A stretch of DNA of 64,000 nt from Halorhodospira halophila (GTDB lineage Bacteria > Pseudomonadota > Gammaproteobacteria > Nitrococcales > Halorhodospiraceae). The stretch is from NCBI RefSeq assembly GCF_016653405.1, contig NZ_NHSN01000016.1:62001-126000 (forward strand), written 5' to 3'. Shown one piece after another: positions 42,147 to 64,000 of the stretch. The notes under the pieces were generated by a model, which saw nothing but the letters and a program-made list of their open reading frames with translations, made no database searches and was not told the origin of the DNA. The translations under genes and the position numbers were made by a program. The first letter of the stretch is position 1; every line of letters starts with the position of its first letter.

Positions 42147-42196
42147 TGGTGGCTATGGGTGGAGTCGAACCACCGACCTTCGCATTATGAGTGCGT
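42147..42196 (-). other. 3' fragment of tRNA-Met(CAT): putative attachment site of an integrated element
   Basis: Read on the minus strand, this is the 3' part of an elongator tRNA-Met. The anticodon stem-loop CGCA-CTCATAA-TGCG has anticodon CAT. A variable region follows, then a perfect T-arm GGTGG-TTCGACT-CCACC, the 3' acceptor strand CATAGCC, discriminator A and encoded CCA. The 5' half (GGCTATG acceptor strand and D-arm) is absent: upstream bases read GGGCCCGAAA. A tRNA 3' end without its 5' half is the typical product of tyrosine-integrase recombination at a tRNA. The intact gene should lie at the other element end, beyond base 64,000. Confidence 0.82.
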
Positions 42197-43982: not shown

Positions 43983-43992
43983 GGGGGGGGGG
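43983..43992. repeat. Homopolymer of ten G between two defence genes
   Basis: Ten consecutive G (on the plus strand) lie in the 123-base gap upstream of the alarmone-synthetase gene, about 64 bases before its start and after the end of the HEPN gene. Homopolymers of this length are prone to slipped-strand length change and could tune the promoter or leader of the downstream gene. Confidence 0.8.
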
Positions 43993-44042
43993 AACGGCGT
44001 CTTTCCTTTCGCGCTGGAGCACTTTTCTAAAAAAATCATCCA

Positions 44043-44861: not shown

Positions 44862-44942
44862 CACTACTCCTTCTCTTTAATGATTGCGTAACCGGTTGCT
44901 TGTGAAGTGGCCGCCGAAAAGCAAATTGCTTCGACGCCCTTT

Positions 44943-45692
44943 TTAAATTGTGCTCCCAAGCACTTTCCTGCTGTACTCACTACACACCCCTGACACCTTT
45001 GATAATAGCTCTGGATGGTACTGTCCGTAGAGGACCCCATGCGGGTGGAGCCTTTTCTTCAAGGCGCGAGGGTATAGTAGCGACTCATAAAATAGCCGAC
45101 CGAGAATCCAGATGGTTCGGACCCGCAGGCGGCCAACAGCGTCTAGACTTTTAACATTGGAAAATAATAAGCACGCTTGATGCTCTTTGAATATTTCTTC
45201 GATAGGAGTGATATTAGATATGGGAGCCTGTTCAGCATACCCTGATAGCGACTCATGATCCCATGAGTGGGAAATTTTGTTCCTGATCTTTCTCAGTGAA
45301 TCTATATCCTGGAGTATGTCTTCGCTGAGCCAGCCAAAGGCGCAGGCAACCTGTATTCTTTTTGAGAGACTTGAGAATGGTCCGTAGCCGGCAAAGAGGC
45401 TGTCCCTGCCTCCTGGGATCCCTTTGGGTATTTCACGCTTGTACATCTCATGGAGAGCTTCATCGGAGAAAGCACAAGCTATCACCGGAAGAAACCTTTC
45501 ATCATCAGACGCGATTGCGTCACAGACCCCGTCCAAGCCCGAAATATTGTAAGACTCCGCGTTGACCTCTTCAGAAAACTCTTTGGCGCGCCTTTTCTCG
45601 AATGCGGTTGTGTAGTTCCTATATACCTGCAACCCATTTTTTTCAGGGTCACTCAAATCTAACGCCGCTATATCTTTATCCCATTCGGACAT
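44943..45692 (-). CDS. MltR-like (mannitol repressor-fold) protein
   Basis: About 249 residues from ATG 45692 (MSEWDKDIAALDLSD); the frame stays open 17 codons further upstream. The middle part resembles MltR/MtlR-type proteins: PFSSLSKRIQVACAFGWLSEDILQDIDSLRKIRNKISHSWD, where the FSSKIxxAxALGxI and LRKIRNxxAH blocks are characteristic. RNKISH is again an R-x4-H motif, so the protein may share a HEPN-like fold. MltR regulates mannitol genes in enterics, but stand-alone relatives on mobile elements are probably not sugar regulators. The role here is unknown. Confidence 0.65.
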   Translation of the reverse strand: MSEWDKDIAALDLSDPEKNGLQVYRNYTTAFEKRRAKEFSEEVNAESYNISGLDGVCDAIASDDERFLPVIACAFSDEALHEMYKREIPKGIPGGRDSLFAGYGPFSSLSKRIQVACAFGWLSEDILQDIDSLRKIRNKISHSWDHESLSGYAEQAPISNITPIEEIFKEHQACLLFSNVKSLDAVGRLRVRTIWILGRLFYESLLYPRALKKRLHPHGVLYGQYHPELLSKVSGVCSEYSRKVLGSTI

Positions 45693-45873
45693 CCTACGAA
45701 CCTCAAGGAGATTTAACGGTGGCACATGTGGGGCCGGAAACATCCAGCAAAACGCTTAATGTGTATAGCGCAGCGGAGGAAAGGCCGGAGTCACTGCAGA
45801 ACACTTGGTTGAGGCTTCCCTACCCAGTATAAAGTTGTCCAGCCTTGCGGTGGAAAAGCACGCCATATTTCGT

Positions 45874-48800
45874 TTAGGTCTCCCACCACAACTCGCCTTC
45901 ATGGCTCGCCATGCCGATAGCTTCCAGGGCCTCAAGGGCAGCCTGGACGGCCTTGCTAGGCCGATGGGTGTAGCGGGCCGCGATGCTGGCGGTCGTTTGA
46001 GGCCCTTCTGAGAGGGCCTGCCGAACCGCCCGGATGCGATCACCCGTATTCTTCGGGAAGGTCGGCTTCTTGCCCGCCGTCTCTGCGGTAGTTGAAACCG
46101 CGGCCAACTCGGTCTGCTCCGCCTCGTGCTCGCTGCTCTCACTCGTCTGGTCCCCCGCCTCGTCTGGCGCCTGAAACTCGGGACGCAGCCAGCGCACATG
46201 CCCGCGCGCCTCCTCAGCGGCGCGCTCGGCGTTGAGGTCTATTAGGCGCTGCAGCAGATCCTGCTCGGCTTGTTCTTGGTCCTCGGGCTTGTTTTGAAGC
46301 GGCGTGGTCGCGCCGGGACGGCCGACGAGCACATCTGCGAGATCCTCCCAGCCATAAGCCTCGAATACGGCCCGGTCGAGTTCATCGTGTAGCTCCGCAA
46401 GTACCGAGATCAGCCCCTGCTCGTGGACCGTGCGTTCCTTCTTCGTCAGTTTCTCTCCGGCGCGGATCTTCTCCAAGACGTTGTACATGCCGGTGAGTGT
46501 AAGGCCTGGGTCTCGTGCCTGGCGTTCAGCGCGTTGTGCATCTAGCCGTTCGCCGAGCACAGCGATGCGATGCTCCAGAGTATGGTCCGGCGCTGGGAAA
46601 GGGAACGTCTCAAAGCATCGGGTTTTGTTGTACCTTGGCCGGTCCTCCAGCGTGCCACCAGCGGCCAGTGCCCACGCAGCATGGACTCGACTTGAAAGCA
46701 CACCCAGGTAGAAAGCGTCTTCAACCCCGATGTTGACCAGCATGTGATCTGGCACAATTGACTGATCAAGAAATGTAAAAATCCGGTGCTTCACGGTTTC
46801 AACCGTAGCAATATAGCGCTCGACCCCACTACTTATTTTGCGCCACTCGGGGCGTGGCCATCCAAAAACCCACCAGTTCTCGCGTATGCTCTTACGGCGG
46901 TTCTGATCCCGCTCCGGCTTTACGCGATCCCGAACCCATTGATACAGAGCAGGCACACGATAGCGTGCGTCCTCTTGACTGAGCCCGAAAAGATCGATAA
47001 CCATCACCCCACGCGGGGTCTGCATAATATCCCGGCCGTTGCGGTATGGGTGGATGCGTTTCGCAATTTCTGGATCACACCCTAAACCCAATTCTTCAGC
47101 CTGGTCCGGAGTAACAATAAAGCCCGCACCGTGAAGCGCAAAACCGTTACTGGTTACGCGCCGATTGGATGCCAAGGGAAAAGCAGAACCCACATCAGCT
47201 CCTACAGTGAGGTTTGAGTTCAATAACCCTTGGCTGCTGCTGACCTCGACTCTCGGAATGCCTCCGTCTGGGTGCGATTCCTTGGTGACCATTTGCAGCG
47301 CACCCTGCGACTTCCCACTCTGAGCGACTGTCAGAGAGATTCTCACCGCGGCCCCATCCGCGCTATCGACCCATGGATGATCAGGAATCGCAAAAACCAA
47401 AGAAAGAGGCGGATCCGAACTTACGTGATTCGCAATCACATGGCGATTGAACGTCTGCCGTAATGAATTGGTAGCCACAAACCCAAAGCGAAAAACCTGC
47501 CCGGATTTAACGTATTTGGCCGCTATGTGCCACCAGTACATAACAAGGTCTGCTGAGTCGGGAACCTCCCCGCCCCAGGCCGACCGAATTGCATCGACAT
47601 ATCCATCACCAAGTGCTGCACGCATTCTTTTCGAGCCGATAAAGGGCGGATTACCAACCACAAAATCTGCCTGAGGCCATTCGGCCCGACGGGGATTAAT
47701 GTAATGGTAAACCTGCGCGCGATAAGCCTCGTCCGGGATCGGCTCACCCGTGACCGGCGAGGGCTTGGTGGTACCATCCCAAATAGTGACCGGCTCTCCA
47801 TGCTCATTCAGCAGCGGCTCCACATCGTCGTACTCGATCAGCGCATCCCGGTGCTCGATGTTGTGGAACCGGCGCAGGATGGGCTCCGGGAGATTGTCCA
47901 CCCGGCCGTGGATTCGGTAGTGCCACTGCACGTAACCGATCCACAGCACCATTTCCGCAATATGGGCTGCCCACGGGTTGATCTCCAGACCGAGGAACTG
48001 GTGCGGGTCCACGGTCATGCCCTCGGCATCGAACCCCGTTTGCCCACCACGCAGCTCCGAGAGCAGCTCTAGGACCTCACCCTCCAGCCGTTTGAGGTGT
48101 TCCATCGCCACATAGAGGAAGTTGCCCGAGCCGCAGGCCGGGTCGAGCACGCGCGTTTCCAGCAGCCGACCGAAGAAGCGTTCTACGGCCTCCCGGGCTT
48201 CCTTCTCCTTGCCCTGGGCAAGCAGCATTGCCGCCTGCGCTTGTGCGTCTGCCCACTCCTCGCGCAAGGGCTCCACGACCGTCGGCAGGACCAGGCGTTC
48301 AACGTATGGCCGGGGCGTATAATGGGCGCCGAGCTTATGCCGTTCCTTGGGATCCAGGGCCCGCTCCAGCAACGTCCCGAAGATCGCCGGCTCCACCTCG
48401 GTCCAGTCGTGGGAGGCTGCGTTGATCAGAAGATCAAGCTGCTCCGTGTTGAGAGGGATGGGGTTGATCTCGTCAAAGAGCCCGCCGTTGAACTGCGGGA
48501 TGCGCACCAACCAACGAGACTCAAACCCACCATCCCGCATCCGCTCCCAGAGGGCTCGCATCGCATCCGGGAACACCTCGGGGTCCTGGCGTACCTCCCG
48601 GAGCATTTCCTGATAGCGGCCGTGGGGGATAAGGCCGATGTCCTCGGCGAACATCGTAAACATGGCCCGCATCAGGAATCGGGAGACGCGCTCAACCTCG
48701 TAGCCGCCCTGCTCTAGCGAGCGCGCAAGCTTTGCCAGGTCGTCGCTGATCTGCCGGGTAACACGCGCCGCGCGCTTGGACAGGTCTAGCGCGTCCGGGT

Positions 48801-49347
48801 CGAGCCATACGAGCCGAAGGCGCTCGCGGACCTCTGAATCCCGAAGATCCTCCAGGCGGATTCTGTGTTGAGCTGGGCTGGGGTATGGGACGTAGTTGCC
48901 GCCGCTACGTGAGAACTCCGAGTAGCACTCGATGACCTGCCCCACATCGACCACCAGGATGAACGGTGGCCGACCTTCCCATGCTGGCAGCGCCCGAACG
49001 TAGCCCTGGGCTTGCTCAAACGCCCGCTTGAGGGCCTTGTCCCAGCCGGTGGTGTTCTCTCCGGCCCTGATCTTCTTCGATTCCAGAACGAAGCAGCCAC
49101 GCCGGTAGAGATCCGCCCTCCGGTTGTGGACGGAACCATCTGGGCCGTGCTCATGCAGGCGCCGCTCGAAGACGTACTCGTTCTCCTCAGCCTGGTCCCC
49201 GGCAGGATCGGGCTTCGGAAGCTCTAGGGCATCACACAGCTCGGTGAGAAAGAGTTGGGAGTTGGCTTGCTCGGTCCCCGCGACACCGCTCCAACGGCTG
49301 ATGAACTGCTCGACCGGGTGTTCCGTGTCTACTGCTTGCTCGGCCAT
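45874..49347 (-). CDS. Fused restriction-modification enzyme (type IIG/MmeI- or DISARM-like methylase)
   Basis: A 1,157-residue protein. The N terminus has a PD-(D/E)xK-type nuclease signature, [18 protein letters not shown] (D-x9-E-S-K, near residues 80-97). A helical linker and the [22 protein letters not shown] segment follow. The gamma-class N6-adenine methylase has motif I [22 protein letters not shown] and motif IV [16 protein letters not shown] target-recognition region comes next, and the last ~60 residues look like a winged helix ([22 protein letters not shown]). The layout fits single-chain type IIG/IIL enzymes, though MmeI is shorter (about 920). DISARM DrmMI-like methylases are similar, but no DISARM partners lie nearby. 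GAGGACAAGG precedes ATG 49347. Confidence 0.82.
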   Translation of the reverse strand: [1157 protein letters not shown]

Positions 49348-49471
49348 CCTTGTCCTCGGGCGCAGAGTGCGAGTACGTTTCCCACGAGGCTTATCAGGGT
49401 ACCATCTCGCCCCTCGGTAGCCGAGCAGCCCGGCCTTTCACTTGCCTTGATGGGAGTCAATCACGCTCGAC

Positions 49472-49696
49472 ATGCCACATAGGTCTATGCCTAACCCGGG
49501 CGGCCACGCTCCCCGGTGGATCAAAAACGATTGGACTGGTCAGCAACACCGACCGCCGAGGGGGTTGCCACCTGACGCGCTTGTCGAGGTCGAACTCCGC
49601 GACGGCGAACGCGAGACCAATATCGCAACTCGCTTCGTTTGGAGCCACACGGGGAGCGAGGTAGACATCCTACGTTATCGTCACCTCATCACCTGA
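49472..49696 (+). CDS. Small phage-style protein of unknown function
   Basis: Up to 74 residues; the start is uncertain (ATG 49472 or ATG 49487). The core WIKNDWTGQQHRPPRGLPPDALVEVELRDGERE and the end FVWSHTGSEVDILRYRHL follow a pattern often seen in short phage proteins (W-x-G, PPxxLVEVxLRDG, WxHxGxxxDIxxYR). It converges with the HNH gene and overlaps its last 8 bases. The function is unknown. Confidence 0.55.
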   Translation: MPHRSMPNPGGHAPRWIKNDWTGQQHRPPRGLPPDALVEVELRDGERETNIATRFVWSHTGSEVDILRYRHLIT

Positions 49697-50549
49697 CAGA
49701 TGAAGCGCTTTCAAATAGTTCCTGTTTCTCAATTTCTTGGATATGAGCTAACAGCCTCTCATTGAATTGCGCGCCATCATCACCATGATGGCATCGCCGG
49801 TGGCAATTCGGGCAGAGGGCAGCGACATAACGCGGATCATCCGGCCCCTCATCAGCAAGGCGCAGGATGTGATGTGGCTCCAAGTATGGAGATCCATTTG
49901 CGCGTTGAAAAGGGGCGCTGCTGTTACATCCCTCACAGATTCCCTCAGCACGAGCTAAGACATAACTCTTAACCGCGGCACTCCTTCTCCGGTACTCCTC
50001 CCGGGTTTTTTTAGAACTGGACGCAGCCGTTTGCTGTGAAGCCTCATAAGCCGCTCTGCGAAGGCTTTCTAGATCATCATAGTCAGCAGCCTCATCACCA
50101 ACATCCGCGCTGGTCGTCAACTCCTGAGGCACGAGGTGAAAGACAATGATCTGACGATCATTGCCGTCCCGGTCCTTACCCTGTCGCAACTCCCATGACG
50201 CACAAGAGAAAGTACCTTGAAAACGAACGGACTTTTCTTTTTCTAGGGTTTCAAAAAGGAGAAGCTCTTTCCCCTTTTGGGCATGGTCTCGCACAGCCTT
50301 GTTGCCGCGAACAAAAGCCATGTCGCCTATTTGACCCTCCCCCGTATACATGAAAACGCCGTCGGGAGACCAGCCATCCTCATAGCCATAGGCGGACCCG
50401 GTGCTACCGGTGAAAAGAAAAATAAATGGGTGCTCCGCGGGGGTAACGATTCCACTCTGCCGCTGCCCGCCATAGACCTTATGAATATCTCTAGCCCGGT
50501 TGTACTCACGCCCCCGAACGAATTGATGAGTTTCGATGGGTTGTGGCAC
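49689..50549 (-). CDS. SRA-like plus HNH endonuclease, type IV (McrA/ScoMcrA-like)
   Basis: A 286-residue protein. The N-terminal half resembles an SRA-type modified-base-binding domain: SGIVTPAEHPFIFLFTG, then YGYEDGWSPDGVFMYTGEGQIGDMAFVRGNKAVRDHAQKGKELLLFE. The C-terminal HNH nuclease has zinc cysteines CEGCNSS and CPNCHRRCHHG around the catalytic EPHHILRLADEGPDDPRYVAALC. Such enzymes cut DNA carrying modified cytosine or phosphorothioate and so act against modified phages. It sits with the fused restriction enzyme as part of the cargo. A clear GGAGG lies a few bases before ATG 50549. Confidence 0.88.
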   Translation of the reverse strand: MPQPIETHQFVRGREYNRARDIHKVYGGQRQSGIVTPAEHPFIFLFTGSTGSAYGYEDGWSPDGVFMYTGEGQIGDMAFVRGNKAVRDHAQKGKELLLFETLEKEKSVRFQGTFSCASWELRQGKDRDGNDRQIIVFHLVPQELTTSADVGDEAADYDDLESLRRAAYEASQQTAASSSKKTREEYRRRSAAVKSYVLARAEGICEGCNSSAPFQRANGSPYLEPHHILRLADEGPDDPRYVAALCPNCHRRCHHGDDGAQFNERLLAHIQEIEKQELFESASSVR

Positions 50550-50769: not shown

Positions 50770-53700
50770 TCAGCGCGGGGCAATTGCTGCCGCCGCACTG
50801 GACAGATGGTTCGTCTTTGCCTCAACACGCCTCACCGCCCGGTTATATGCCGGATAGCTGATAGCGTTCCGCCGATAGTCGCGTTCCAGCGCTCGACGTT
50901 CGGCGTGAAGCGCGCGCCGGCGCTGTTCGATCTCCATGCTTCGGAACCAGTACCCGAGGTCCACATCGTGCCCGCGCGCCTTGATGCCGACCCCGGAGGC
51001 GAGAGACTGAGGGATACTCGCCGGGCGGTCGAGAAGGTCGCGCTCGCCGCGCAGTGCGGACATGAGTGAGGCATTGTGCCAGGAGCCTGGGATGTACGCC
51101 CCACTCGGCACGTAGGCACGCCACAAGTAGCCCATGCGCGCATTGAGCCGGTCTTGCCAGTCCGAGGCGAGCGGGTCGTAGATTTCCTGCCCGGTGAAGT
51201 TCTGCTTGTTCAGGTATAGCTCGAAGCCGATCTGGAGCGGGCCACCCATCTGCAGCCAGGCCGGTACGCCGGTGACGCCCTGCTGGGTGTCGAAGACATC
51301 GCCGGCCGGCACCCAACGCATGATGTCGAGGTACATGGGGTTGTCGTACTGGTCGCGCCACGGCAACCGCACCATGCGGTTCCAGCCGATGTCCGTGAAC
51401 GGGATCGAGGCCCAGGTCATGCCCTGGACCTCGGGGCGCATCGTGCGCCGCTCCTCGTCCTCGTCGCCGGGCTCCAGCTCGAAGGCGAGCAGGTTCGCCA
51501 GGTAACCGATGGTGATGTACTTGGCGAGCTTCCAGGGCCGGTGGGCGATGGCCGTGGCAATGGCCGGCGCCGCGCGGTAGGTGTAGCTGATAAACGGCAG
51601 CACGCTCTGCCGGGCGGCGTTCACCCAGGGGGCGCGGATGTTGTAGTCGAGGAACTGCACCCGCGCCTGCCGGGCCGCCTCGGGCGCATCCATGCCCATG
51701 CCGCGCAGGCGCATGTATGTCCCCATGCGGAAAATCTCATCCTCGACCTGGTAGAAGTCCACCATGCGCCGGTCGGCCTTCTTCACCCCGTCCCACAGCC
51801 GGTAACCAAGCTGGGAGAGGAAGCGCACCCGGCCACCCATCGACTCCTCACCGCGCCGGGCCTCGGCCAGCATCTCATCGACGATGGGCGCGAGCACATC
51901 GCGCTGGATCTCCTGGTGGACGAAGGTGCCGCCGAAGGCGCCATGCTCACGCGCCTCCTGGTACATGGGCCCCTTGTGCGCGAACTCCCGGATCCCCGCG
52001 GCAAGGTCACGCACACGCACGTCGATCAGGTCCATGAGCCCGAGGTTCGACATCACGTTGTTGACGTGGACCACGGGCGAGCGGGCGGTGTTGTGGGTGG
52101 GCACCATGCCGTCGCCGGCTAGGTACAGGTGGCTCTCCGACGAGACCGCAATGCACCGCACAGGCACCGAATCGACCGGGGTGATGGATACGATTTGTCG
52201 GTTCCCCGAGCGCCGCCGGGAGACCGAGGCCGGCCGGATCCGTTCGGCCTTGCGCCGGATTGTGGCTACGGGGCGATCCGTGTTCGGGCGGAAGTAGATT
52301 CTCCAGTGTGTGCCGACGCACTCTCCGTTCAGGCGAGACTCAGACGGACGCAGGGTCGGCTTGTACCCGAGCGAGGTCACAAGCTCTTTGATGCCCCGGG
52401 CAAGACGCTCGGAGCTGCTGATGATGATGCACTCCCCCTTGGTTGTGATGCACCCGTCAGAGTCCACGATGCCTTGCAGAAGCTCCAGCCGTTGCTGCTG
52501 CGAAGCCCGCAGATACTCGCCGGGGATGTGCTTATCGCCGATCACACCCAGGTCACGCATTCGGTCCCCGAAGTCCGCGTTGACTACCGGAGACATCGGC
52601 TCGCCGATGGATTTCTCTCGGCGGGCCTCTCGCTCGCACTCACCGCAGTTTTTCGGGTTGCGGTGACTGTCGTCGTGGCCACGGATACAGCGTCCAGGCT
52701 GCTTCTGAATCGTAAACGAATAGACGTTGTTGCGCTTATCCTTTATCGGGGCGGTGCAAACCACCCCGGATGACTCCAGGTTGGAGACAACCTCCTCCAG
52801 GTCTTGGCCGCCAACGTATAAGCGGGGGCTTCTCTTGTGGCCGTCTCCAAGCCAAACCCCCAGCGCGTAGGGCGGCAAGGGTAGGTCGGCATCCGGTAGT
52901 TCCAGTGCGCCGGCCACCGGGATCGAATGGGCCGCTTCGCCCCGATGGTTGATCGTGAGCGTGTTGCGGATTTCCTCAGTGGTACGAACGGCGCCCCCAT
53001 CGTTACGGTGGTTCGTGAACCACCAGTGCTCATCGTCGGCCACGATGCTGGTCCCATCCGAGAACTCTACCCGGTAACAGGGTCGGCCGTGCTGAACGTC
53101 CTTCACCTCCAAGACCGTGCAGGGCTTTCCGTTCTCATCGAACAGTGTGTCGCCCTCCTGGATTTCCCTCATCGTGGTCCATCCGTCCGCAGTCGGGATC
53201 GGCGTATCGAGGGCCAGGGCCTTGTTCAGCTTCCAGTGGGTCAGCAGCTTTCGCCACGTCCCCGGCGTCTGCATGATGTCCAGCTCGTTGAGGTCGCGCC
53301 AGATTTCCGGGCGCACGTACATGCCGGCCAGATCACCCCACTTGAATGCCTTGGCGCCCTTGGCCACCCGGGTCTCGGGCACCCGCACCCAATCGACGCC
53401 CACGAACGTCGAGAGCCGCCGCGCCTCCTCGGCGTTGACGATCTCCGGCGCCTCGCCGGTCTCGGTGGTCGGCTCGTGCTTGGCCCAATCCGGGTTCTTG
53501 GCGATGTCGGAGAAGAACCGGGCGCTGGAAATGTCGTGCGCGAGAAGCTGGAAGCTCTTGATGAGGTTGTAGCGCACGTCGAGAACCTGGCCCATGTCCT
53601 CCCGCTCGGCCCGGGTGTAGTCACGGCGGAGGATCAGCTTCTCGCCCCGGGTACCGGCCACCTCGAAGGTGCCGCGGCTCTCCCAGGTGTCAAAGCGCGC

Positions 53701-56700
53701 CGGAAGCTCCCGGTCGGCGGGCCAGAACACGCGCTCGCGCACGCGGCGCTGGGCCGGCTGCGCCGGGTCCATGCCGGTGAGCGGGTCCATGCCCTCGGGC
53801 GTGTACTCCAGGCGGTCGAGCATGACCCACTCGGTGCCGACCAGGTGGGTGTCGGCCTGGCCGGGGCGCAGCTTCCGGCCCCACCAGTCGCGGGGCACGT
53901 TGCGAAGCAGCCGCTCGGTGGTGACCTCCTCCTTGAGCCCGCGCATCCGCAGCGAGTCGCCGCCGATCTTCTTGCGGTGCTTGCGCTGCGCCTGGTGCAT
54001 CCACTTCGGAAGTCCCGAGAGTTCCGCCTCGTGCTTCTGGTAGCTGCGGTGCAGCCAGTCGGTGATCGCGCTATCGGCCTTTATCAGCCCAAGCTCGATC
54101 ATCTGCCCGGTCAGGTCATCTAGGGCGGCGCGGATCGGCACCGAGAGCGATTCCAGCGCCTCGGTCGGCACCTCGCCCTCATCGAGCACGCGCTGGAGCA
54201 CCAGGCGCTCCTCGCGGCTGAGGTTGGCCTTCTGAATCTGCTCGACCAACCCCTCCATCTGCCCGAGGATCCGCCGGCTCTCCGACTCTCGGGCGGCATC
54301 GCGTTGGATGAATGACTCGGGCACGCCGTAGCGGTCGATGAGCCCGGCCCGGGCCCGCTCAACCAGCGGGTGCAGCCAGCGCCCGAACATTCCCTCCGGG
54401 TCCACCGTGCGCTCGTGGAGCGTCTTGCGGATCTGCTCGGTCAGTTGCACACCCGGGCGGAAGCGGCCGTACTCATCCGTGCTGCCGGTCAGGTCGAACA
54501 CCGCGCTGAACAGCCGATCCACCGGGGCGCCCTTGCGGATGGCCTCGCTGACCTGGCGCTGCCGGTCCAACGCCTCGGTGCCCTGCTGGCCGCGGCGGGC
54601 AAAGGCCGCCTCGCCGGCCATCTGATCCGGCGTCTGCGCCTCCAGGGAGCGGTGAGCCCGGCGCAACAGGGCCCGCAGGTCGGCGTCGTTGAGTCGGATG
54701 GTCAGCCCGAGCCCGCGCAGCCACTCGCGCAGTACCGCCACCGCTCGCTCGATGATGCTGGCATGGGTGCCATCCTCGGCCATCTGCGCCAGGCGCTCCT
54801 CGGCGATGATCGCCCGGTGCGTGGCGTTCTGCGGGTCGAAGGTGCCCGGCTCGAAGTAGCTGTCGATGATCGCCTGATTGCCCCGCGCCCCGCCGGTGGC
54901 CGCCCACACCTGATTGAGCACCGGGCGGATCCGGGTGCCGAGGAGATTGCGCAGCCCGTAGTGGCCGACCGCCTCGTGCAGCAGGGTCCGCTCCAGGGCT
55001 TGGGCGCTGTCGTGGCGATCCGCCACCAGGTAGATCACCCCGCGGTAGTAGACCCCGCGCATATCCTCCAGGGCCCCGGCCTGCTCGGCCAGCGCGTGGA
55101 TGTCGGCGGGCAGGTCGCGCACGCTCTGCACCGTCTCCAGGCGCGGGCCGTCCCAGCCGGCACTGACCTTGGCAACGTGGCGCCGGGCCTGCTCAACCGG
55201 GAGCCCTTGCCCCAGGGTCGAGGACCGCTTGAGGCTCGGCCCCTCGGCCCAATCGCGCAGCGCACCAAGGTCCACGCCTTCCATCTCGTGCCCGAGCGCC
55301 ATGTCATCGACGCGCAGGCGAACATCGCCCGGTGTGCCGCGCTCGACCATCTCGGTGGCCATGCGCCGGATCTGCGCCCGCCCACGGCCATAGGGCGCCA
55401 GGGCCGGCGAGCCGCTGATCCGCACCTCGTGCGCATCGCCGTAGCGGACGTAGCGCAGGGTGCTGTCGGCGTCGTAGGCGTCCATGTCCACCACGATGTT
55501 GCTGTGGTGCCAGTCCACCGCGTCGCCCTGGCGCTGCGTGTAGTGCTCCGACGGGCCCTGCCGCGGGACCATGCCGAGCCAGGGGTCGTGGTACAGGCCG
55601 CGGGCATACCGCTCCTCGCTGCCGCCGGCCTCGCCGCCTTCCTGGCTCTCGCGGGCAAGTTCCGCCTCGATGGCCCGCACCTGGGTTTGCAGGTCTTCCA
55701 GGCGCTCGGCGCCGTCGTACTCCTGGCCCAGCCGGCTCTCGTACTCCCGAACCTCCTGCTCGGCCTCGGCGATGCGCTTGCGGTGGTGCTCGATCTCCGA
55801 CTCGAACCCGCGAAGCTGGTGCTCAAGCGACTGGATCAGACCCCGGGCCGAGCCACTCACGCGCACGTCGGCCGAGTAGTCGCCGGCACGCTTGAGCCCC
55901 ACGTCGGCGAACCGCTCGTGGGTGCCCCACACCGTCGCCATAATGTCGAAGCCGCCGATCTCGCCGATCTTCTTCGGCGGCGCCATGCCCTGCCCCTGCT
56001 TCAACTCCTCGATGCGCTGGAGCATCGCCTGGCCGGCCTCCAAGCGGTCGGTGAACGCCTGATCGCCGACCTTGGCGATGAACGCCTCGCCGCTGGTGTC
56101 CTGGCGCTGGGCGATGTCCTCCTCGATGCGCGGGATCCGGTTGACCGAGGTTTGGCGGCTCATCTGTGCGCGGTTGATCCGCTGACGGATCACCGACTGC
56201 TCGCGCTGGTGCGCCGCCTTGCGCCGCTGCTCACGCTCAAGGTTCTGGCGCAGTTCGGTGAGCTGCATGATCCGCGGGTCGGCCGTCGAGAGCGCCTTGG
56301 CCTGCTCGTACTGGCTGGCTTCGCCCAGGTCATCCATATCGCGCAGCGTCGGGTCGCCGCGGAAGAAGCCTTCGATGAAGCGCGCCTTGCGCTCCATCAT
56401 CTGCCACATGGTCGAGTCGTAGGTGCCCTTGGTCGAGTAGTCGTGAATCTCGATCTCGGGGTTCATGTTGCCCTGGCGCAGAATCCGGCCGTTGCGCTGC
56501 TCGTCGTCGGCCGGGTACCAAAGCGGGTCGAGGTTATGGACCGCGTAGAGCCGGCGCTGGGCGTTGACGCCGGTGCTCATCTTGGCCGTCGAGCCGATGA
56601 GCACGCGGACCTTGCCCTCGTTCACGTCGTTGAACAGCCGTTGCCGTGCGGCGTGGGTCTTGTAGTCGCGGATGTCGGCAATCTCTGAGCGCGGCACCCC

Positions 56701-59700
56701 GCGGCGGGCCAGTTCGGCGCGGATGTAGTTCGGCACCGAGAAGCCCCGTGTGCCCGAGAGCCCGAGGTTGGCAAAGATCATCTGCGTGGCCGGGCCAGCG
56801 TCCACCGGGGTCTCGCTGTAGCCATCGGCACGCGGCTCGTAGAACGGCTGCGCGCTCGTGCGCCGGTGGATCTCGGCCACGTTGTCGATGAGCATGTTGA
56901 GCTTGCTGCCCGGGTCTTCGCTCACCTCGCGGTCGGCCAAACGCATGTCGATGGCGGCATGGCGCCCATCGTTGATGACCGAGAGCATGATGTCGTCGCC
57001 AGGCTCCGGCGGGCCCTTGCGCCGCTCGATGGCCTCCATCCGCGCGGCCAGCTTCGCCTGATACTCGACCAGCGCCTCCGAGCGTTCGGCCAGGTTCATC
57101 TGCCGCTTGCCCCCGCGCAACCGGGGCCGGGTGACGTACTCGCCAAGCTGCTGGCTGGTCACCACGTCCATGTTCTGGCGAACCATGTTCGACAGTTCCG
57201 GGACGTTGACGAACTTGGCAAAGCGCGTCACCGACTTGTAGTTGCCGGCGGCGTCTTGCTCGAGGTCCGTGACCGTATCGCCAAAGGCGCCGGCCCAGGC
57301 GTCGAAGTGCGACAGCCCGCGCGCCTCCAACTCCTGCGGCTGGAGGTAGCGGCTGATTGTGTAGAGCTCGGCCATGGTGTTGGTCACGGCCGTCCCCGAG
57401 GCCAGCACGAGGTTCTGCCCCGGGTTCACCCGCTCCAGGTGGCGGCTCTTGGCGTACAGATCCCACGACGCCTTCGAGCCCTCGGGGCTGACCCCCTTCA
57501 CGCCGGACATCTTCGTGGCGAAGTCCAGCTTGCGGAAGTAGTGGGCCTCGTCCACGAACAGAAAATCCACCCCCATCTCCTCGAAGGTGAATACCTGGTC
57601 CGTGGCCTTCTCCGCCTTGCCGGTAAGCCGCTGCTCCAGGCGCTCGATCTGCTTCTGCAACCGGGAGCGCGTGATGCGGTTCTCGGCATCCTTGTCCATC
57701 TGCTCAAGCAGTTCGCGGTAGTCGTCGATCTGCTGCTGGATCAGACCGTCCTGGAACTCGTTGCTGACCGGGATCATCCCGAACGCCGAGTGGGTGATGA
57801 TGATGGCGTCCAGGTCCTCGCTCGCCACGTTGGCGATGAACTGCTTGCGCCGGCTGGTGTGAAAGCGCCGCTCATCTGCCACGGCAATGCGTGCCGTGGG
57901 GTACTGCTCATAGAACTCCTTGGTGAACTGCGCGAGCATGTGATTCGGGACCACGTACATGGGCTTGTTCACCAGCCCGAGCCGGCGCATTTCCATGCCC
58001 GAGCCGATCATCGCCGAGGTCTTTCCGGCGCCAACGCCGTGCGCCATGTAGGTGTTGCCCGACTGGATGATCCGCGCGATCACCCGCTTCTGATGCGGGC
58101 GCCACTGCCAAGCGGACGAGACGCCGGGCGTGGTCAGGTAGGAGCCGTCGTACTCGCGCACGACCGTCGAGTTGAACTGCTCGTTGTAGATTTCGGCCAG
58201 TTCCGCGGCCCGGCCCTCGTCCTCCCAGGCCCAGGTCGAGAACTTCTCCTTGATCGTCTTGAGCTTGTCCTGTGCCGCCTGTGTGGCCTCGGTATCGACC
58301 CAGGTGGTCCGGGTGCCGTCAGCGAGCTTTTCCGAGCGGGTGACCTGTGGCGTGCGCCGGTTCAGCGCGTGCTCGATCAGTTCGGTGGCCGACAGGTCCG
58401 CCGTTCCCCACTCGGCGGTGGACGCCGCCGATCCCTTATCCCCACTGACCTCCCAATAGGCGAGCTTCGGCGTATAGCGCGCGGTGAGCGTGCGAAGCCC
58501 TAACCCATCGGTGGCGAACCGCTCAACGATTGCCTCGGGGATCCACGGGGCGCCCAGGGTGGCGCTGATCTCCGAAGGCGTTAGATCGACCGGCTGCACC
58601 GCCTCCAGGGCGGCGACGTTGCGCTCGAACTCGGGGTTCTTCTCCGCCGCCGCCTCGGCGCGGCGCAACTTCTCGCGCACGTTGCCCGAGAGGTACGCAT
58701 CGCGCAGGACGTAGGTGTCTTCGGTGCCGGGGAGCTTGAAGATGCTCTCGCCTAGCTCCTCGATGGCCTGCGTCTGCGACTTACCCGAGAGCGCGGCGAT
58801 CTCTGGGATGTCGAGCCGGCCCTTGCGGTTGAGTACATGGAGCATCGCGTCGTTGACCGAGCGGATCTCGGGCGCGCGCTCGCGCGTGATGATGTTCTCG
58901 AAGAAAACATCGCTCTTGCCCGACTCTCCGGTTTCCTCGCTGTAGACCTCGATGGCGCGCAGGCGGTAGCTCTCGGGGTCATCCATGAACGGGTCGATGT
59001 TCTCCCGCTTCTCGATGACCAGATCCTCCATGGCGGCCGGGTCGAAGCTCCCCTCGTCGAAGCTGCGCCCCTCCCGCTCGGCCTGCTCGCGGGCGGCCTT
59101 GCGCGCGGCGGCGATCTTGGTCAGGGAGGCCCCCTCGGCAATCATCCCCGAGGCGTCGAAGTCGCCCTCGCGCCAGACCTCCCCGGCATACCGGGCTTCT
59201 TCGCGTGCCTCCGCGCGGGCGGCCTCCTGCTGAACGATGGTCGGGCGCCGGTGTTGGCGTTCGAGCTTGTTGATCGGCCCGAACCGCTCCACGAAGGCGT
59301 CGTAGGCTTCGTGGAGCCGCGCCCGGGCGACCTTGGCGTTATCCGGCTGCCCGGCCAGATCCGCGGCGTAGACCGCGCGCAGGGCATCACGGATGGGGAC
59401 CAGGCCACGGATGCGCTCGATATGCCCCTTGGGAATGCCCGCCTGCCCCTTGCCGCGGGCCTGCACCGGCACGCCGACACCATCGCGCACCTGCATCAGC
59501 CGCTCGCCGTCGAAGTAGAACGAGCCGTCCTTCTTCTGATCGGTGCCGAAGTCGATCTCCGCCCGCTCGTCCTGGGTCACCCCCTCGGCCATGACGTTCT
59601 CGGGGAACTGCTCGATGGCCCGCGCCAGGGCCTTGTCGAGCGGCTGGCCCTTGACCCCGCGCACGGCGTAGCGATTCTCGTAGAGCGGGTCAAAGAAGCC

Positions 59701-62700
59701 CTGCTCGCCGAGCACCATGTCCGGGTTCTCGGCGAAGTAGCGGCTCATCCGCCCGGTGATCGACTGCCCCTGTTTGTTCGGGAGCGTGACCTCAACCGTC
59801 TCCGTCCAGCTACGATCCCCAGCCGGCTCCCCCTCCAGGCGCTTGCGCAGCACCACGATGTCGGTGGTGACCGAGGTGTGGGCGGTCTTCTCGAAAGCGG
59901 CACCCGGCAGACGGATCGCGCCCACCAGATCGGCCCGATCAGCCAGGTACTCGCGGGCGCTGGCGTCGGCCTTGTTCATGGTCCCGGCCGACGTGACGAA
60001 GGCCAGGAGCCCACCGGGGCGCACCGCATCGAGGGACTTGGCAAAGAAGTAATCGTGCAGGAGGAACCCTTGCGGGTATCGGGAATCGCTGCGGATGGGG
60101 ATGTCGGCAAACGGCGGGTTGCCGATCACCAGATCGAAGGTATCCCGCGGCAAGGGGGCCCGGGTGAAGTCGTCCTGGCGCACGCCCCAGCGCGGGTAGA
60201 GCGCCCGGGCGATGCGCGCGGTGATGTGATCGAGTTCCAGGCCGGCGTAGTGCGTGCGCGCCGCCACGTCGGCGGGCATGGTGGCCGGGAAGTTGCCGAC
60301 ACCCATGCCCGGCTCGAACACCTGGCCGCCGTCGAACCCGAGCCGACGGACCAGATCCCACATGCCCCGGGTGACCGTCTCCGAGGTGTAGTGGGCGTAC
60401 TGCAAGCTGCGCTCGGCGGTGCGGTACTCGGTATCGCTCAGTAGCTCGCGCAGTCGGGTGCCGATGTCCCGATAGCCCTTGGCGTACTCGCCCTGGGCGT
60501 CCGGGAACGCACCCTTGAGCCCACCCCAGCCGATGTAGCGGGCAAGCTGCGCCTGCTCCTCCGGGGTGGCCGGCCGACCCTCGGCCTCAAGGGCCTGGAT
60601 CAGTTCGATGGCGCGCAGGTTATCCCGCGCCTTCTGCTTCGGACCGCGGGTTTCCTGGAGCCCGCCGGGCTCTACGGTAAAGTTCTGTGGATCTCGTCCG
60701 GGTCGCTCTCGAAGTCGATGAACGTCTCGCGCACGATCTCCTCGGCCTCCCGCCTGTGGGGCTGTTTCACCACCCCGTTCGGGAGCTTCGGCGCGTTGGC
60801 GGTCAGTTCCCGGTACATTTGGTACGCCTGCTTGGTCAATTCCTGGAGGTGTTCCTCCATCTTCCCGGAGCGCATCAGCTCGCGGTACATCTGCGGCGCC
60901 CGCTCCTGCATGGCCCGCAGATACGGCATCTGAAACTCCATGGCCCTGCCCCTCTTGCAGATCCCGCGCAAAGCGCAGGACGTAAGGCTTGATTCCCGTC
61001 CCGAAATTATCGAGTACCGCGCGGATGAACGCACGCAGATCCTTCCCGGCGGCCTGGAAGTCGCGGAGCATCGCCTGAAAGTGCGGCTTGGCCTGCTGGT
61101 AGGTGTTCTCATCGAAGGACAGCCCCGAACTCAGCCGCCCGGCCTTGGTGCCGAACAGCGCGGCAAGCCCCGCCACCGCCTCCTGCCCGGCGCTGGAGAG
61201 GTTCCCGCCCATGCTCTTGGCGATCTCCGCGGCCGTGCGCTCGACCGACTCCTGCTGCTCGGCGCGAGCCTGCTGCTTGCGCGGGCGCTTCTTACCATCG
61301 GGCTTTTCGGCCGTCTTGGCCCGGGCCCCCTGGGGGCGCTCGGTCTGCGCGGCACCGGACTCCGCGGCCACCTCATCGAACAGCGCCGACAGTTCGGCCT
61401 CGTCCATTGCCGCAAGCTGACCGGCCAGGGAGTCGGCGGGCTCGGCAGCCGGATCGCTTGGCACCGCAGCATCAGGCTGCGCCTCGCTCGGGGCGGTCTC
61501 GGTTTCGGCGGCCGCCTGACCGACCCGCGAAGGCGACTCCTGCTCCAGTTGCCGGGCAAGCGCCTCCACGTCGCTCTCACGTAGGACATGGGGGGCGGCC
61601 AGCCCCTTGCGCGCCTCCAGGCCCGCGCGCCGGGCGAGTTGGACGCGCTCGCTCGGGCGCATCTGCTCCAGGCGCGTGCGCGGGGAGTCCTCGCTGTGAT
61701 CGCGCTCGATGAGCGGGCGCAGTCGCTCCAGGGTGGATGCGCTGATCTGCTCATGCCCTTGGCGACTGGTCCACTCCGGGTCCGCCTCCCCGGCCTCCTC
61801 CGCGATGCGCTGGCGCTGGTAATTCTCCATGCGCCGCCACCGCGCACGCAGCCAGCCCCCCTCGGCCTCCTGTGTTTCGCGCTCCAGGGACTCGGTATCC
61901 CGGCCCTGGGTGTCGCGGCGCACCTCCTCGATGATCTGCTGCTTGAGTTCCCGGGCCTGCTCTTGGGCACGGGGGCTCATGTTGGAGAGGAGTTTGCGCC
62001 CATGCTCGTCCGTAAAGCTCCCGCGGTCGGCGACGTACAGCGCCAACTCAAGCTCGCGGCGCACCTGCGGATCGCCGGCACGCTCCATCTGCTCACGCAA
62101 ACGGCGCGCGGCCTCCCGCCTGATCGCCTTTTTGCGCCGACCGGATTCGTGGCCCCGGTCGTATTCCATCAGGCGCTCGGCATCGAGGGCCTGCTCCTCC
62201 TGTTGCCGCTGACGCTCCTGCTCGCGCTCGGAGGGCTGTCCCTGGCGGCTCTCTCGCTCGGCGCGGACATCGGAGAGGTCTTCGTAGGCCGCCCACGCCT
62301 TGGCGGGAACGTCGAGCCCGAACTCACGGGCAGCGAGCACCCGGCGCAAGTGGGTCGGGATCTCGCCAATCTCGCCGCCGTCGAAGTAGCCGGCGGCGAC
62401 CTCACGGTTCAGGTTATAGCTGTCCTGGACGTTCTGATCGCCGCGGGCTTCCAGGAACTCCTCCAGGCCCTTCTGCCAGTCGTAGGCCCCGGTGTTGCCG
62501 GTGTCGTGAAGCAGGGAGCGGACCTTCTTCGGGAAAGCGCCGGGATGCTGCCGGATTAGACCCTGCTCCCGGGCGTCCGCCACGCTCAGTTCGCCGGCAT
62601 CGTAGCGCCGGGCGATCTCTGCGCGCTCGGTGAGGGCCGAGTCCGGGTTCTCGCGGCGCCACTGCTTCACGCGCTCGCGGATCTCGGCCACCCGGCCGTT

Positions 62701-64000
62701 CTTGGCCAGGCCCAGGGGCGCGAGGATCTGCTCCTTGATCGTCTTGCCGGTGAGCCGGTCCACCCCCTCGTCGATCCGACGCGCCGCCTCCAGGGCCTTC
62801 TCTGCGCGCTTGCGGGCATCCCCCTTCGACTCGTTCGAGCGCGGCAGCGGGGCGCCGAGTGCGCGAAGGATATGCCGGGGCTGCTGCTCATCAATGGCCG
62901 CGGCCTGCGCCTCATCCCGGGTCCGGGTGAACGCATCCTCGTTGAGCACGATCAGGGTGCGCGGGAGTCCTTCGGAACGGATCAGGTTGTAGACATCCAG
63001 CGAGCCCTCCACCGTCTCGAAACCGCGTTCGGGGAAGGCGATGGCGTCGCAGCCCTGCTCCTGCGCCTGGTCGATCACCTGCTGCGCACGGTCCCGGCCA
63101 CGGGGCATCCGCTCGACCTGCATCACGCGGGCATCCGGGGCCAGGCGGAAGGTCAGCACCGAGCCGCGTGCGTCATCGGGCGGCATCCGCGAGGCTTGCA
63201 ACTCCCGCTTGTTCTCGGCCCACTGGCCGAACAGTTCGGCGGCCCGGCGGCTCTCGGTCAGGTAGAAGTGATCGCCCTGGTCAAAGGCGTTCATGCCGAC
63301 GCCGGAACCGGAGCGCTCGGCGTCGAAGCGGTCGAAGTCGATGCCGGCGGCGGTGCCGTGGTACAGGTCACCATCGAGGCCCAGGGCGCTCGCCGTGTCC
63401 TCGGCGCCCTGCGCTGCCGCGGGCTCGGCGGCCGTCTGCTCGGCTGCCGGCTGCTCGGCGGCCTCCACCGGCTGCTGGCGCTCGGCGGGGAGCGGGCGCG
63501 CATCGGAGTCGATGATCTCCTCACCGGCCTGGTTGACGTACACCCCGTCCTCGTCCTCCAGGGCGCGGACCAGTTCGCCGTCGGATGCCTCGTGCGTCGG
63601 CGTGAAGGGCTCGCTCGGGGTGGTCGCGGCCGGCTCCGCGACGGGCTGGGGCTCCGGCGTCGGCTCGGCCACGGCCTCCGGGGACGGCTCGGGGTTGGCC
63701 TCGGCCGGGGCGGCGGTCTGCGCGCTCGGCTCGGCCTCCGTCTGCGGGGGGCGAAGCGCCCAGGCGCCCTCGCCCACTTGCTCCGGGGTGTGGTCGGGGA
63801 GTTTGCGGCTGCGCGCGGCGGCACGGGCGGCGGCCTGCGTCGGGTACGGGCTGCCATCGGCCTTGTAGACCAGTCCCGGGGCGGCTTGGGCGTCGGCGAT
63901 GTCGGTCTGCGCCTGCGAGCCATCGAACAGCGCCCCCTCGCCGGCGCCGGCCGGGACGTGGCCGGCCTCTCCGCCGGATAGGCGCTCATCGACGGCGCGC
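50770..64000 (-). CDS. Giant polyvalent protein (ART-like, N6-methylase, SNF2 helicase, HExxH, C-terminal LPD region), interrupted by an intein; 5' end outside window
   Basis: The frame is open from the right edge for at least 4,409 codons; GTG 63777 is not the true start because conserved-looking sequence (YKADGSPYPTQAAARAAA) continues upstream in frame. Counting from 63777: an ADP-ribosyltransferase-like region near 136-270 (LYHGTAAGIDFDRF); charged coiled-coil stretches to about 800; an N6-adenine methylase with FDLVIGNPPFADIP near 1,215; an SNF2-type helicase with HGVGAGKTSAM near 1,910, LFVDEAHYF near 2,072 and NGRILRQGN near 2,427; a peptidase-like LLHEAVGHYGL near 2,930; and a long C-terminal region holding the intein at 3,520-3,896. 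The build matches large polyvalent proteins of phages and conjugative elements, some of which (P1 DarB) are packaged to protect incoming DNA. Confidence 0.88.
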   Translation of the reverse strand, partial: RAVDERLSGGEAGHVPAGAGEGALFDGSQAQTDIADAQAAPGLVYKADGSPYPTQAAARAAARSRKLPDHTPEQVGEGAWALRPPQTEAEPSAQTAAPAEANPEPSPEAVAEPTPEPQPVAEPAATTPSEPFTPTHEASDGELVRALEDEDGVYVNQAGEEIIDSDARPLPAERQQPVEAAEQPAAEQTAAEPAAAQGAEDTASALGLDGDLYHGTAAGIDFDRFDAERSGSGVGMNAFDQGDHFYLTESRRAAELFGQWAENKRELQASRMPPDDARGSVLTFRLAPDARVMQVERMPRGRDRAQQVIDQAQEQGCDAIAFPERGFETVEGSLDVYNLIRSEGLPRTLIVLNEDAFTRTRDEAQAAAIDEQQPRHILRALGAPLPRSNESKGDARKRAEKALEAARRIDEGVDRLTGKTIKEQILAPLGLAKNGRVAEIRERVKQWRRENPDSALTERAEIARRYDAGELSVADAREQGLIRQHPGAFPKKVRSLLHDTGNTGAYDWQKGLEEFLEARGDQNVQDSYNLNREVAAGYFDGGEIGEIPTHLRRVLAAREFGLDVPAKAWAAYEDLSDVRAERESRQGQPSEREQERQRQQEEQALDAERLMEYDRGHESGRRKKAIRREAARRLREQMERAGDPQVRRELELALYVADRGSFTDEHGRKLLSNMSPRAQEQARELKQQIIEEVRRDTQGRDTESLERETQEAEGGWLRARWRRMENYQRQRIAEEAGEADPEWTSRQGHEQISASTLERLRPLIERDHSEDSPRTRLEQMRPSERVQLARRAGLEARKGLAAPHVLRESDVEALARQLEQESPSRVGQAAAETETAPSEAQPDAAVPSDPAAEPADSLAGQLAAMDEAELSALFDEVAAESGAAQTERPQGARAKTAEKPDGKKRPRKQQARAEQQESVERTAAEIAKSMGGNLSSAGQEAVAGLAALFGTKAGRLSSGLSFDENTYQQAKPHFQAMLRDFQAAGKDLRAFIRAVLDNFGTGIKPYVLRFARDLQEGQGHGVSDAVSAGHAGAGAADVPRADALREDGGTPPGIDQAGVPNVPGTDRQRAEAPERGGETAPQAGGRGDRARDVHRLRERPGRDPQNFTVEPGGLQETRGPKQKARDNLRAIELIQALEAEGRPATPEEQAQLARYIGWGGLKGAFPDAQGEYAKGYRDIGTRLRELLSDTEYRTAERSLQYAHYTSETVTRGMWDLVRRLGFDGGQVFEPGMGVGNFPATMPADVAARTHYAGLELDHITARIARALYPRWGVRQDDFTRAPLPRDTFDLVIGNPPFADIPIRSDSRYPQGFLLHDYFFAKSLDAVRPGGLLAFVTSAGTMNKADASAREYLADRADLVGAIRLPGAAFEKTAHTSVTTDIVVLRKRLEGEPAGDRSWTETVEVTLPNKQGQSITGRMSRYFAENPDMVLGEQGFFDPLYENRYAVRGVKGQPLDKALARAIEQFPENVMAEGVTQDERAEIDFGTDQKKDGSFYFDGERLMQVRDGVGVPVQARGKGQAGIPKGHIERIRGLVPIRDALRAVYAADLAGQPDNAKVARARLHEAYDAFVERFGPINKLERQHRRPTIVQQEAARAEAREEARYAGEVWREGDFDASGMIAEGASLTKIAAARKAAREQAEREGRSFDEGSFDPAAMEDLVIEKRENIDPFMDDPESYRLRAIEVYSEETGESGKSDVFFENIITRERAPEIRSVNDAMLHVLNRKGRLDIPEIAALSGKSQTQAIEELGESIFKLPGTEDTYVLRDAYLSGNVREKLRRAEAAAEKNPEFERNVAALEAVQPVDLTPSEISATLGAPWIPEAIVERFATDGLGLRTLTARYTPKLAYWEVSGDKGSAASTAEWGTADLSATELIEHALNRRTPQVTRSEKLADGTRTTWVDTEATQAAQDKLKTIKEKFSTWAWEDEGRAAELAEIYNEQFNSTVVREYDGSYLTTPGVSSAWQWRPHQKRVIARIIQSGNTYMAHGVGAGKTSAMIGSGMEMRRLGLVNKPMYVVPNHMLAQFTKEFYEQYPTARIAVADERRFHTSRRKQFIANVASEDLDAIIITHSAFGMIPVSNEFQDGLIQQQIDDYRELLEQMDKDAENRITRSRLQKQIERLEQRLTGKAEKATDQVFTFEEMGVDFLFVDEAHYFRKLDFATKMSGVKGVSPEGSKASWDLYAKSRHLERVNPGQNLVLASGTAVTNTMAELYTISRYLQPQELEARGLSHFDAWAGAFGDTVTDLEQDAAGNYKSVTRFAKFVNVPELSNMVRQNMDVVTSQQLGEYVTRPRLRGGKRQMNLAERSEALVEYQAKLAARMEAIERRKGPPEPGDDIMLSVINDGRHAAIDMRLADREVSEDPGSKLNMLIDNVAEIHRRTSAQPFYEPRADGYSETPVDAGPATQMIFANLGLSGTRGFSVPNYIRAELARRGVPRSEIADIRDYKTHAARQRLFNDVNEGKVRVLIGSTAKMSTGVNAQRRLYAVHNLDPLWYPADDEQRNGRILRQGNMNPEIEIHDYSTKGTYDSTMWQMMERKARFIEGFFRGDPTLRDMDDLGEASQYEQAKALSTADPRIMQLTELRQNLEREQRRKAAHQREQSVIRQRINRAQMSRQTSVNRIPRIEEDIAQRQDTSGEAFIAKVGDQAFTDRLEAGQAMLQRIEELKQGQGMAPPKKIGEIGGFDIMATVWGTHERFADVGLKRAGDYSADVRVSGSARGLIQSLEHQLRGFESEIEHHRKRIAEAEQEVREYESRLGQEYDGAERLEDLQTQVRAIEAELARESQEGGEAGGSEERYARGLYHDPWLGMVPRQGPSEHYTQRQGDAVDWHHSNIVVDMDAYDADSTLRYVRYGDAHEVRISGSPALAPYGRGRAQIRRMATEMVERGTPGDVRLRVDDMALGHEMEGVDLGALRDWAEGPSLKRSSTLGQGLPVEQARRHVAKVSAGWDGPRLETVQSVRDLPADIHALAEQAGALEDMRGVYYRGVIYLVADRHDSAQALERTLLHEAVGHYGLRNLLGTRIRPVLNQVWAATGGARGNQAIIDSYFEPGTFDPQNATHRAIIAEERLAQMAEDGTHASIIERAVAVLREWLRGLGLTIRLNDADLRALLRRAHRSLEAQTPDQMAGEAAFARRGQQGTEALDRQRQVSEAIRKGAPVDRLFSAVFDLTGSTDEYGRFRPGVQLTEQIRKTLHERTVDPEGMFGRWLHPLVERARAGLIDRYGVPESFIQRDAARESESRRILGQMEGLVEQIQKANLSREERLVLQRVLDEGEVPTEALESLSVPIRAALDDLTGQMIELGLIKADSAITDWLHRSYQKHEAELSGLPKWMHQAQRKHRKKIGGDSLRMRGLKEEVTTERLLRNVPRDWWGRKLRPGQADTHLVGTEWVMLDRLEYTPEGMDPLTGMDPAQPAQRRVRERVFWPADRELPARFDTWESRGTFEVAGTRGEKLILRRDYTRAEREDMGQVLDVRYNLIKSFQLLAHDISSARFFSDIAKNPDWAKHEPTTETGEAPEIVNAEEARRLSTFVGVDWVRVPETRVAKGAKAFKWGDLAGMYVRPEIWRDLNELDIMQTPGTWRKLLTHWKLNKALALDTPIPTADGWTTMREIQEGDTLFDENGKPCTVLEVKDVQHGRPCYRVEFSDGTSIVADDEHWWFTNHRNDGGAVRTTEEIRNTLTINHRGEAAHSIPVAGALELPDADLPLPPYALGVWLGDGHKRSPRLYVGGQDLEEVVSNLESSGVVCTAPIKDKRNNVYSFTIQKQPGRCIRGHDDSHRNPKNCGECEREARREKSIGEPMSPVVNADFGDRMRDLGVIGDKHIPGEYLRASQQQRLELLQGIVDSDGCITTKGECIIISSSERLARGIKELVTSLGYKPTLRPSESRLNGECVGTHWRIYFRPNTDRPVATIRRKAERIRPASVSRRRSGNRQIVSITPVDSVPVRCIAVSSESHLYLAGDGMVPTHNTARSPVVHVNNVMSNLGLMDLIDVRVRDLAAGIREFAHKGPMYQEAREHGAFGGTFVHQEIQRDVLAPIVDEMLAEARRGEESMGGRVRFLSQLGYRLWDGVKKADRRMVDFYQVEDEIFRMGTYMRLRGMGMDAPEAARQARVQFLDYNIRAPWVNAARQSVLPFISYTYRAAPAIATAIAHRPWKLAKYITIGYLANLLAFELEPGDEDEERRTMRPEVQGMTWASIPFTDIGWNRMVRLPWRDQYDNPMYLDIMRWVPAGDVFDTQQGVTGVPAWLQMGGPLQIGFELYLNKQNFTGQEIYDPLASDWQDRLNARMGYLWRAYVPSGAYIPGSWHNASLMSALRGERDLLDRPASIPQSLASGVGIKARGHDVDLGYWFRSMEIEQRRRALHAERRALERDYRRNAISYPAYNRAVRRVEAKTNHLSSAAAAIAPR
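52090..53220 (-). other. Class 3 intein with LAGLIDADG homing endonuclease
   Basis: A 377-residue in-frame intein between host residues LNK and TARSP. It starts ALALDTPIPTADGWTTM, so residue 1 is Ala rather than Cys or Ser. Block B is GTSIVADDEHWWFT with Trp at position 67, two after the His. Block F is VPVRCIAV with Cys 356, and block G is MVPTHN with Thr 375 and the terminal His-Asn. The +1 residue is Thr. This Trp-Cys-Thr set with no N-terminal nucleophile defines class 3 inteins. The endonuclease has two DOD motifs, YALGVWLGDG and LLQGIVDSDG, and between them a Cys/His cluster (CIRGHD then CGEC) that could bind zinc. All splicing residues appear intact, so it should be active. Confidence 0.93.
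60672..60941 (-). CDS. Overlapping small gene inside the giant gene (89 residues)
   Basis: ATG 60941 with AGAGGGGC about 8 bases upstream opens an 89-codon frame ending at TAG 60672, in a different frame of the same strand as the giant gene. By my hand count about 79 of its 89 codons end in G or C, as expected here, while the giant frame over the same bases ends in G or C in only about 30. The protein is a plausible helical one (MYRELMRSGKMEEHLQELTK, later REAEEIVRETFIDFESDPDE), with some resemblance to TnpV-type small proteins. The giant frame reads as low-complexity Gly/Ala/Pro/Arg here, between its coiled-coil and methylase parts. An overprinted gene is the simplest reading. Confidence 0.7.
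   Translation of the reverse strand: MEFQMPYLRAMQERAPQMYRELMRSGKMEEHLQELTKQAYQMYRELTANAPKLPNGVVKQPHRREAEEIVRETFIDFESDPDEIHRTLP

Follow-up and report, generated by a model that had tools for sequence, protein, structure and literature searches.

A class 3 intein with a two-motif LAGLIDADG endonuclease in the predicted giant DarB-like virion protein of a Halorhodospira halophila prophage

Introduction

Can a stretch of 377 codons that opens with Ala be a complete intein, and what would such an element be doing inside a giant phage gene? Class 3 inteins are defined by Trp at B:12, Cys at F:4 and Thr at G:5 (the WCT signature) and do not need a nucleophile at position 1; their +1 residue is usually Ser or Thr, while His B:10 and a His-Asn end are features common to inteins (PMC5222942). 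Here we examined this question in a 64,000-nucleotide stretch of Halorhodospira halophila DNA (the window, whose positions are counted from its first letter), by comparing the putative intein with its relatives, its insertion site with the same site in homologous proteins, and its host gene with known phage genes.

Results

The 377 codons (ALALDTPIPT at the start of the intein, MVPTHN at its end) are in frame and free of stops, and the open frame around them continues past the right end of the window (Table 1). Position 1 of the window's intein is Ala rather than Cys, Ser or Thr, with the junction set by 22 intein-free homologues. Alignment with 33 relatives revealed the WCT signature as Trp67, Cys356 and Thr375, together with His65 (B:10), the His376-Asn377 end and Thr at +1; across the 34 full-length inteins of this alignment, the window's included, His B:10, Cys F:4 and the terminal Thr, His and Asn were invariant. 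A sequence-only reading of this DNA had placed a complete 377-residue intein at exactly this position, naming Ala1, the Trp of block B, the Cys of block F, the Thr-His-Asn end, Thr+1, two LAGLIDADG motifs and a Cys/His cluster, and all of these were found, the motifs at residues 116-128 and 244-258 and the cluster at residues 178-195.

Table 1. Features of the intein, its host gene and the prophage end, in window positions.
Feature	Position	Strand	Basis or remark
DarB-like polyvalent protein gene, in-window part	50770..64000	-	5278 aa; start at G000:C16:128606
Adenine methylase domain (N6_Mtase / Eco57I)	59839..60393	-	Pfam
SNF2-type helicase region (DEAD + Helicase_C matches)	56470..58101	-	Pfam
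N-extein half of conserved C-terminal module	53221..54552	-	Homologue alignment; right edge approximate
Class 3 intein, complete, 377 aa	52090..53220	-	Frame reading, phmmer, alignment, AlphaFold, Foldseek
Trp67, block B position 12 (WCT signature)	53020..53022	-	33/34 aligned inteins, window's included
LAGLIDADG motif 1, PPYALGVWLGDGH, residues 116-128	52837..52875	-	Alignment and AlphaFold model
Cys/His cluster C-x3-H-x9-C-x2-C, residues 178-195, within endonuclease domain	52636..52689	-	Alignment; absent from 33/33 aligned relatives
LAGLIDADG motif 2, RLELLQGIVDSDGCI, residues 244-258	52447..52491	-	Alignment; Pfam LAGLIDADG_3 spans region
Cys356, block F position 4, class 3 initiating nucleophile	52153..52155	-	34/34 aligned inteins
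Thr375-His376-Asn377, block G end	52090..52098	-	34/34 each in alignment
Thr+1, C-extein residue 1	52087..52089	-	Frame reading and insertion-site comparison
C-extein half of module and giant gene's end	50770..52089	-	Homologue alignment
Prophage end repeat, 49 bp	42147..42195	.	Identical to tRNA-Met gene end at G000:C16:167399

When solved structures were searched with phmmer, the intein matched class 3 DnaB inteins over both splicing halves with a best E of 8e-31, 6bs8 and 6rix being matched at E about 1e-30. Since a match of this strength covers both halves and the blocks are shared by 34 distinct inteins, a chance match can be excluded. An AlphaFold model of the intein, built from 19 sequences, reached a mean pLDDT of 88.7. 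Foldseek searches with this model returned PI-SceI at the top (E=2.4e-18) and LAGLIDADG enzymes such as I-DmoI lower in the list, and class 3 structures were aligned over their full length with target TM-scores of 0.83-0.92 (6bs8, 0.87-0.92; 6rix, 0.86-0.87). At the level of sequence and predicted fold, the element is confirmed as a complete class 3 intein with a two-motif LAGLIDADG endonuclease, the class that the sequence-only reading had proposed.

The exact junction was examined in homologues of the host protein. In a C-extein search, a homologue from genome G154 was found to read WRKLMTQWKLNK-TARSPVVHMNNVMSN without interruption. The C-extein alone as query of the genome contigs gave no confirmed locus, and a three-sequence alignment was used instead, yielding 11 loci in genomes and a further 17 in IMG/VR; a scan of IMG/VR with the whole 1276-aa segment as query gave no pattern match. 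There were 22 distinct homologues that span the site, and all of them join the flanks as WK(L/A)NK-T(A/Y/F)R(S/N)PVVHMNN with small variations (for example, WKLNK-TARSPVVHMNN), confirming the LNK/TARSP junction that had been read from the window by itself. The site is accordingly occupied in 1 of the 23 alleles examined, the window's only. No intein match was obtained in the 18 records or genomes holding homologues, many of the virus records being fragments. Because the patterns used in the homologue search were located elsewhere in the module, the insertion site was not selected for. While the identity of the homologous modules to the window's averaged 0.40, the five best 15-residue segments (of about 880) reached 0.86-0.87 and all lay in the insertion block, so that the earlier suggestion of a conserved homing target is borne out within the C-terminal module. 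Apparent insertions in three Azospirillum homologues (L037, L038 and L060) lie away from the intein site, the junction block being uninterrupted; for L037 and L060, the genomes or records that contain them also gave no intein match.

The residues next to the insertion were compared among 35 relatives, the block alignment covering 34 full-length inteins with the window's included. Lys occupied -1 in 31 of the 35 and a GK pair preceded the intein in 26, with Thr or Ser at +1 in every case; by inspection, most of these sites fall in the Walker A motifs of terminases and helicases. The window's site, NK-T, keeps the K and the T without a P-loop, in a region without a recognised ATPase domain. A mycobacteriophage RecB-like exonuclease likewise carries a class 3 intein at a YK-T site without a P-loop, in its PD-(D/E)XK domain. 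In the tree, long branches lead to the nearest relatives, L005 (support 0.53), L004 and L008. Ectopic homing from Walker A sites was considered at the DNA level and not retained: the nucleotide flanks of the relatives' sites were alike to the window's at 10.7 of 30 positions, compared to 10.4 +/- 2.9 for random K-T/K-S codon pairs, a likeness no greater than chance, so that the route of homing is not traceable in the DNA. A class 3 intein was also observed in a P22-like portal protein (L013:5001-6026). In Escherichia phage vB_EcoM_PTE-Eco09 (L067), the intein-bearing gene is annotated as a replicative DNA helicase, a name that looks intein-driven since the same match is annotated as terminase large subunit in related phages.

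Within the endonuclease part, the Cys/His cluster has a further His in addition to the motif given in Table 1, and its first Cys/His pair is absent from all 33 aligned relatives. A 46-aa peptide of the cluster gave no match in phage records, and this region is of low confidence in the AlphaFold model. Putative zinc binding by the cluster in DNA recognition is plausible. That the cluster is an acquired zinc-binding module, which altered the specificity of the endonuclease, let a Walker-A-type class 3 intein enter a non-ATPase K/T site and might make splicing of the giant virion protein zinc-responsive, is a doubtful proposal.

The host open frame has 5290 codons, of which 5279, including the stop, run from the first ATG to the stop; the predicted protein has 5278 residues with the intein and 4901 after splicing. 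From the helicase end onward, the host matches phrog_10089 (DarB-like antirestriction, PHROGs) at E=7e-92, and by its Pfam and PHROGs matches it is a predicted DarB-like methylase-helicase polyvalent protein, as the sequence-only reading had held in calling it polyvalent. The C-terminal module of about 890 aa, which the intein interrupts, also occurs joined to different N-terminal regions: over the 2096 aa that were read, the G154 protein resembles the host only in this module, at 43-45% identity, and several module homologues were found without a methylase or helicase motif. About 25 giant proteins of phages or prophages with differing N-terminal parts have the module in common (L033-L060). 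A tblastn search of 50,697 deposited phage records gave nothing for its C-extein half, a scan of the module homologues against Pfam and PHROG returned no family above chance, and no PDB match for the module was obtained by sequence or fold. The model of the module, of moderate quality (pLDDT 69.8), is similar to portions of several phage proteins whose names refer to polyvalent domains; its weak fold likeness to pieces of N4-like virion RNA polymerase was not relied on. A second large frame in the same genome, of 3172 codons, shares 46% identity with the giant protein over about 190 residues (G000:C8:33269-33853, L027).

As for the surroundings of the host gene, the 49-bp repeat in the window (C16:104147) has its exact copy at G000:C16:167399-167447, where a complete tRNA-Met gene ends next to an integrase, and because this repeat links the window to that gene we delimit a temperate prophage of 63 kb. 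Upstream of the host gene are a P22-like portal, an SU10-type adaptor, an internal virion protein and a tail fibre; beyond the virion genes are terminase subunits, primase, helicase, repressor, Erf, exonuclease and integrase. The host gene is at the late end of this podovirus-type prophage in the tRNA-Met gene and is the last gene of its virion module. This position, like the restriction of the Cys/His cluster to the window's intein among the aligned relatives, goes beyond what had been noted for this DNA before. The segment that separates the giant gene from the end of the prophage (42867-50549) holds defence cargo: one protein has a RelA/SpoT domain and matches the PADLOC candidate PDC-S33 (E=4e-102), a second is MmeI-like and belongs to type IIG restriction-modification, and a third is an HNH type IV-like restriction protein. 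Mass spectrometry has detected the DarB-like gp69 in virions of JC1, a Bcep22-like podovirus (PMC9144972), and polyvalent proteins have been proposed to be injected together with the DNA (PMC5512222); by analogy with both, we infer that the window's giant protein is packaged.

Discussion

Overall, these results support, with a probability of about 0.88, the reading that the host is a giant DarB-like polyvalent virion protein from a temperate phage of podovirus type and that an intact class 3 homing intein resides in its C-terminal module. Most likely, the intein splices constitutively to give a functional virion protein. During splicing, Cys356 would attack the Lys-Ala bond, the acyl group would move to Thr+1 and Asn377 would cyclise, joining the extein halves as LNK-TARSP in the 4901-aa protein. 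Splicing would be required before the host protein can work in the virion, and the spliced protein would be packaged and then act on incoming DNA early in infection. For mobility, two such phages would have to meet in one cell, where the LAGLIDADG endonuclease would cut the intein-free allele and the intein would be copied in. The site would be favoured because the protein, and hence the DNA, is most conserved here within the module and because the K(-1)/T(+1) pair is the one mostly used by these inteins.

Endonuclease loss is common among inteins, and the window's intein may likewise be degenerating, with homing lost and splicing kept, the latter being assumed because the host frame is intact. 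The replacement of the first LAGLIDADG acidic residue by Asn in 8 of the 34 aligned inteins and the single occupied allele would fit this course, but the window's intein retains both D126 and D255 as well as an intact LAGLIDADG fold, and we regard the loss of homing as unlikely while giving it some weight. Splicing might also be held by redox or zinc and so time the supply of the virion protein. In M. smegmatis DnaBi1, which is the closest solved class 3 intein, zinc bound to the initiating Cys stops splicing in a reversible manner (PMC7360933), and the window's intein has the same Cys in addition to its Cys/His cluster; such a conditional switch is nevertheless very improbable, since all 22 intein-free homologues do without the intein, which argues against a general need for it, and the cluster lies in the endonuclease part, away from the splice site.

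The G+C content, which is 62.4% in the intein and 68.5% in the host gene, could be taken as a sign that a foreign intein was joined into the contig during assembly or binning. However, the third-position G+C of the intein (0.77, against a gene mean of about 0.88) is within the 0.71-0.92 of equal-sized windows of the gene, the frame is kept at both junctions, the junction is exact when compared to the 22 homologues, and the contig is 205 kb long in a genome that is 99.9% complete, so that an artefact is hardly credible.

The intact homing intein that we favour can be set beside several known systems. With the mycobacterial DnaB-1 mini-inteins (Msm DnaBi1, 6bs8/6own; Mch DnaB1, 6rix) it shares the ALALDTP.PT start, His B:10, Trp B:12, Cys F:4, the THN end and the splicing-domain fold in addition to the sequence match reported above; those interrupt DnaB, the replicative helicase, and are mini-inteins, whereas the window's has a LAGLIDADG endonuclease and a giant phage polyvalent host. 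The class 3 inteins of phage terminases and primase-helicases (Vibrio phage 489E54-1 terminase; IMG/VR L004, L005 and L008) are likewise full-length with LAGLIDADG, have K at -1 and T or S at +1 and are 35-40% identical over the whole length, but most of them split the Walker A GK-T/S of an ATPase, while the window's K-T is outside any recognisable ATPase domain. The intein of the P22-like portal (IMG/VR L013) is also of class 3 and also in a non-ATPase virion structural protein, and differs in having Ala at -1, Ser at +1 and another host family. PI-SceI, the yeast VMA intein and best fold match, combines a splicing domain with a double-motif LAGLIDADG endonuclease in the same way; it is a class 1 intein, only about 15% identical, in a eukaryotic vacuolar ATPase. 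On the side of the host, JC1 gp69 (4515 aa) is likewise a DarB-like giant protein in a podovirus virion module, and the window's protein has its phrog_10089 match just after the helicase; the C-extein half of the module is not shared by the deposited Bcep22-like members among the phage records searched.

In the literature consulted, which was mostly open-access, the polyvalent-protein paper PMC5512222 is without mention of inteins, and the one paper in which both terms occur describes no intein in a polyvalent protein. What is new and well supported here is the insertion site and the host family; the element itself belongs to a known kind. Class 3 inteins had been called rare and this host unusual: the class is indeed a less common type, yet its relatives numbered tens to hundreds in the IMG/VR scan and the phage search, and the host family and site are new although another virion protein, the P22-like portal, already hosts a class 3 intein. 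The comparison of an occupied site with its empty counterparts is exact across 23 alleles, and no other part of this uncharacterised module, which many uncultivated phages have in common, is as constrained as the WK(L/A)NK-T block. The known hosts of class 3 inteins now include a giant, probably injected phage protein, and the locus offers a concrete test case for intein splicing within a virion protein of 5000 residues, which would have to take place before packaging.
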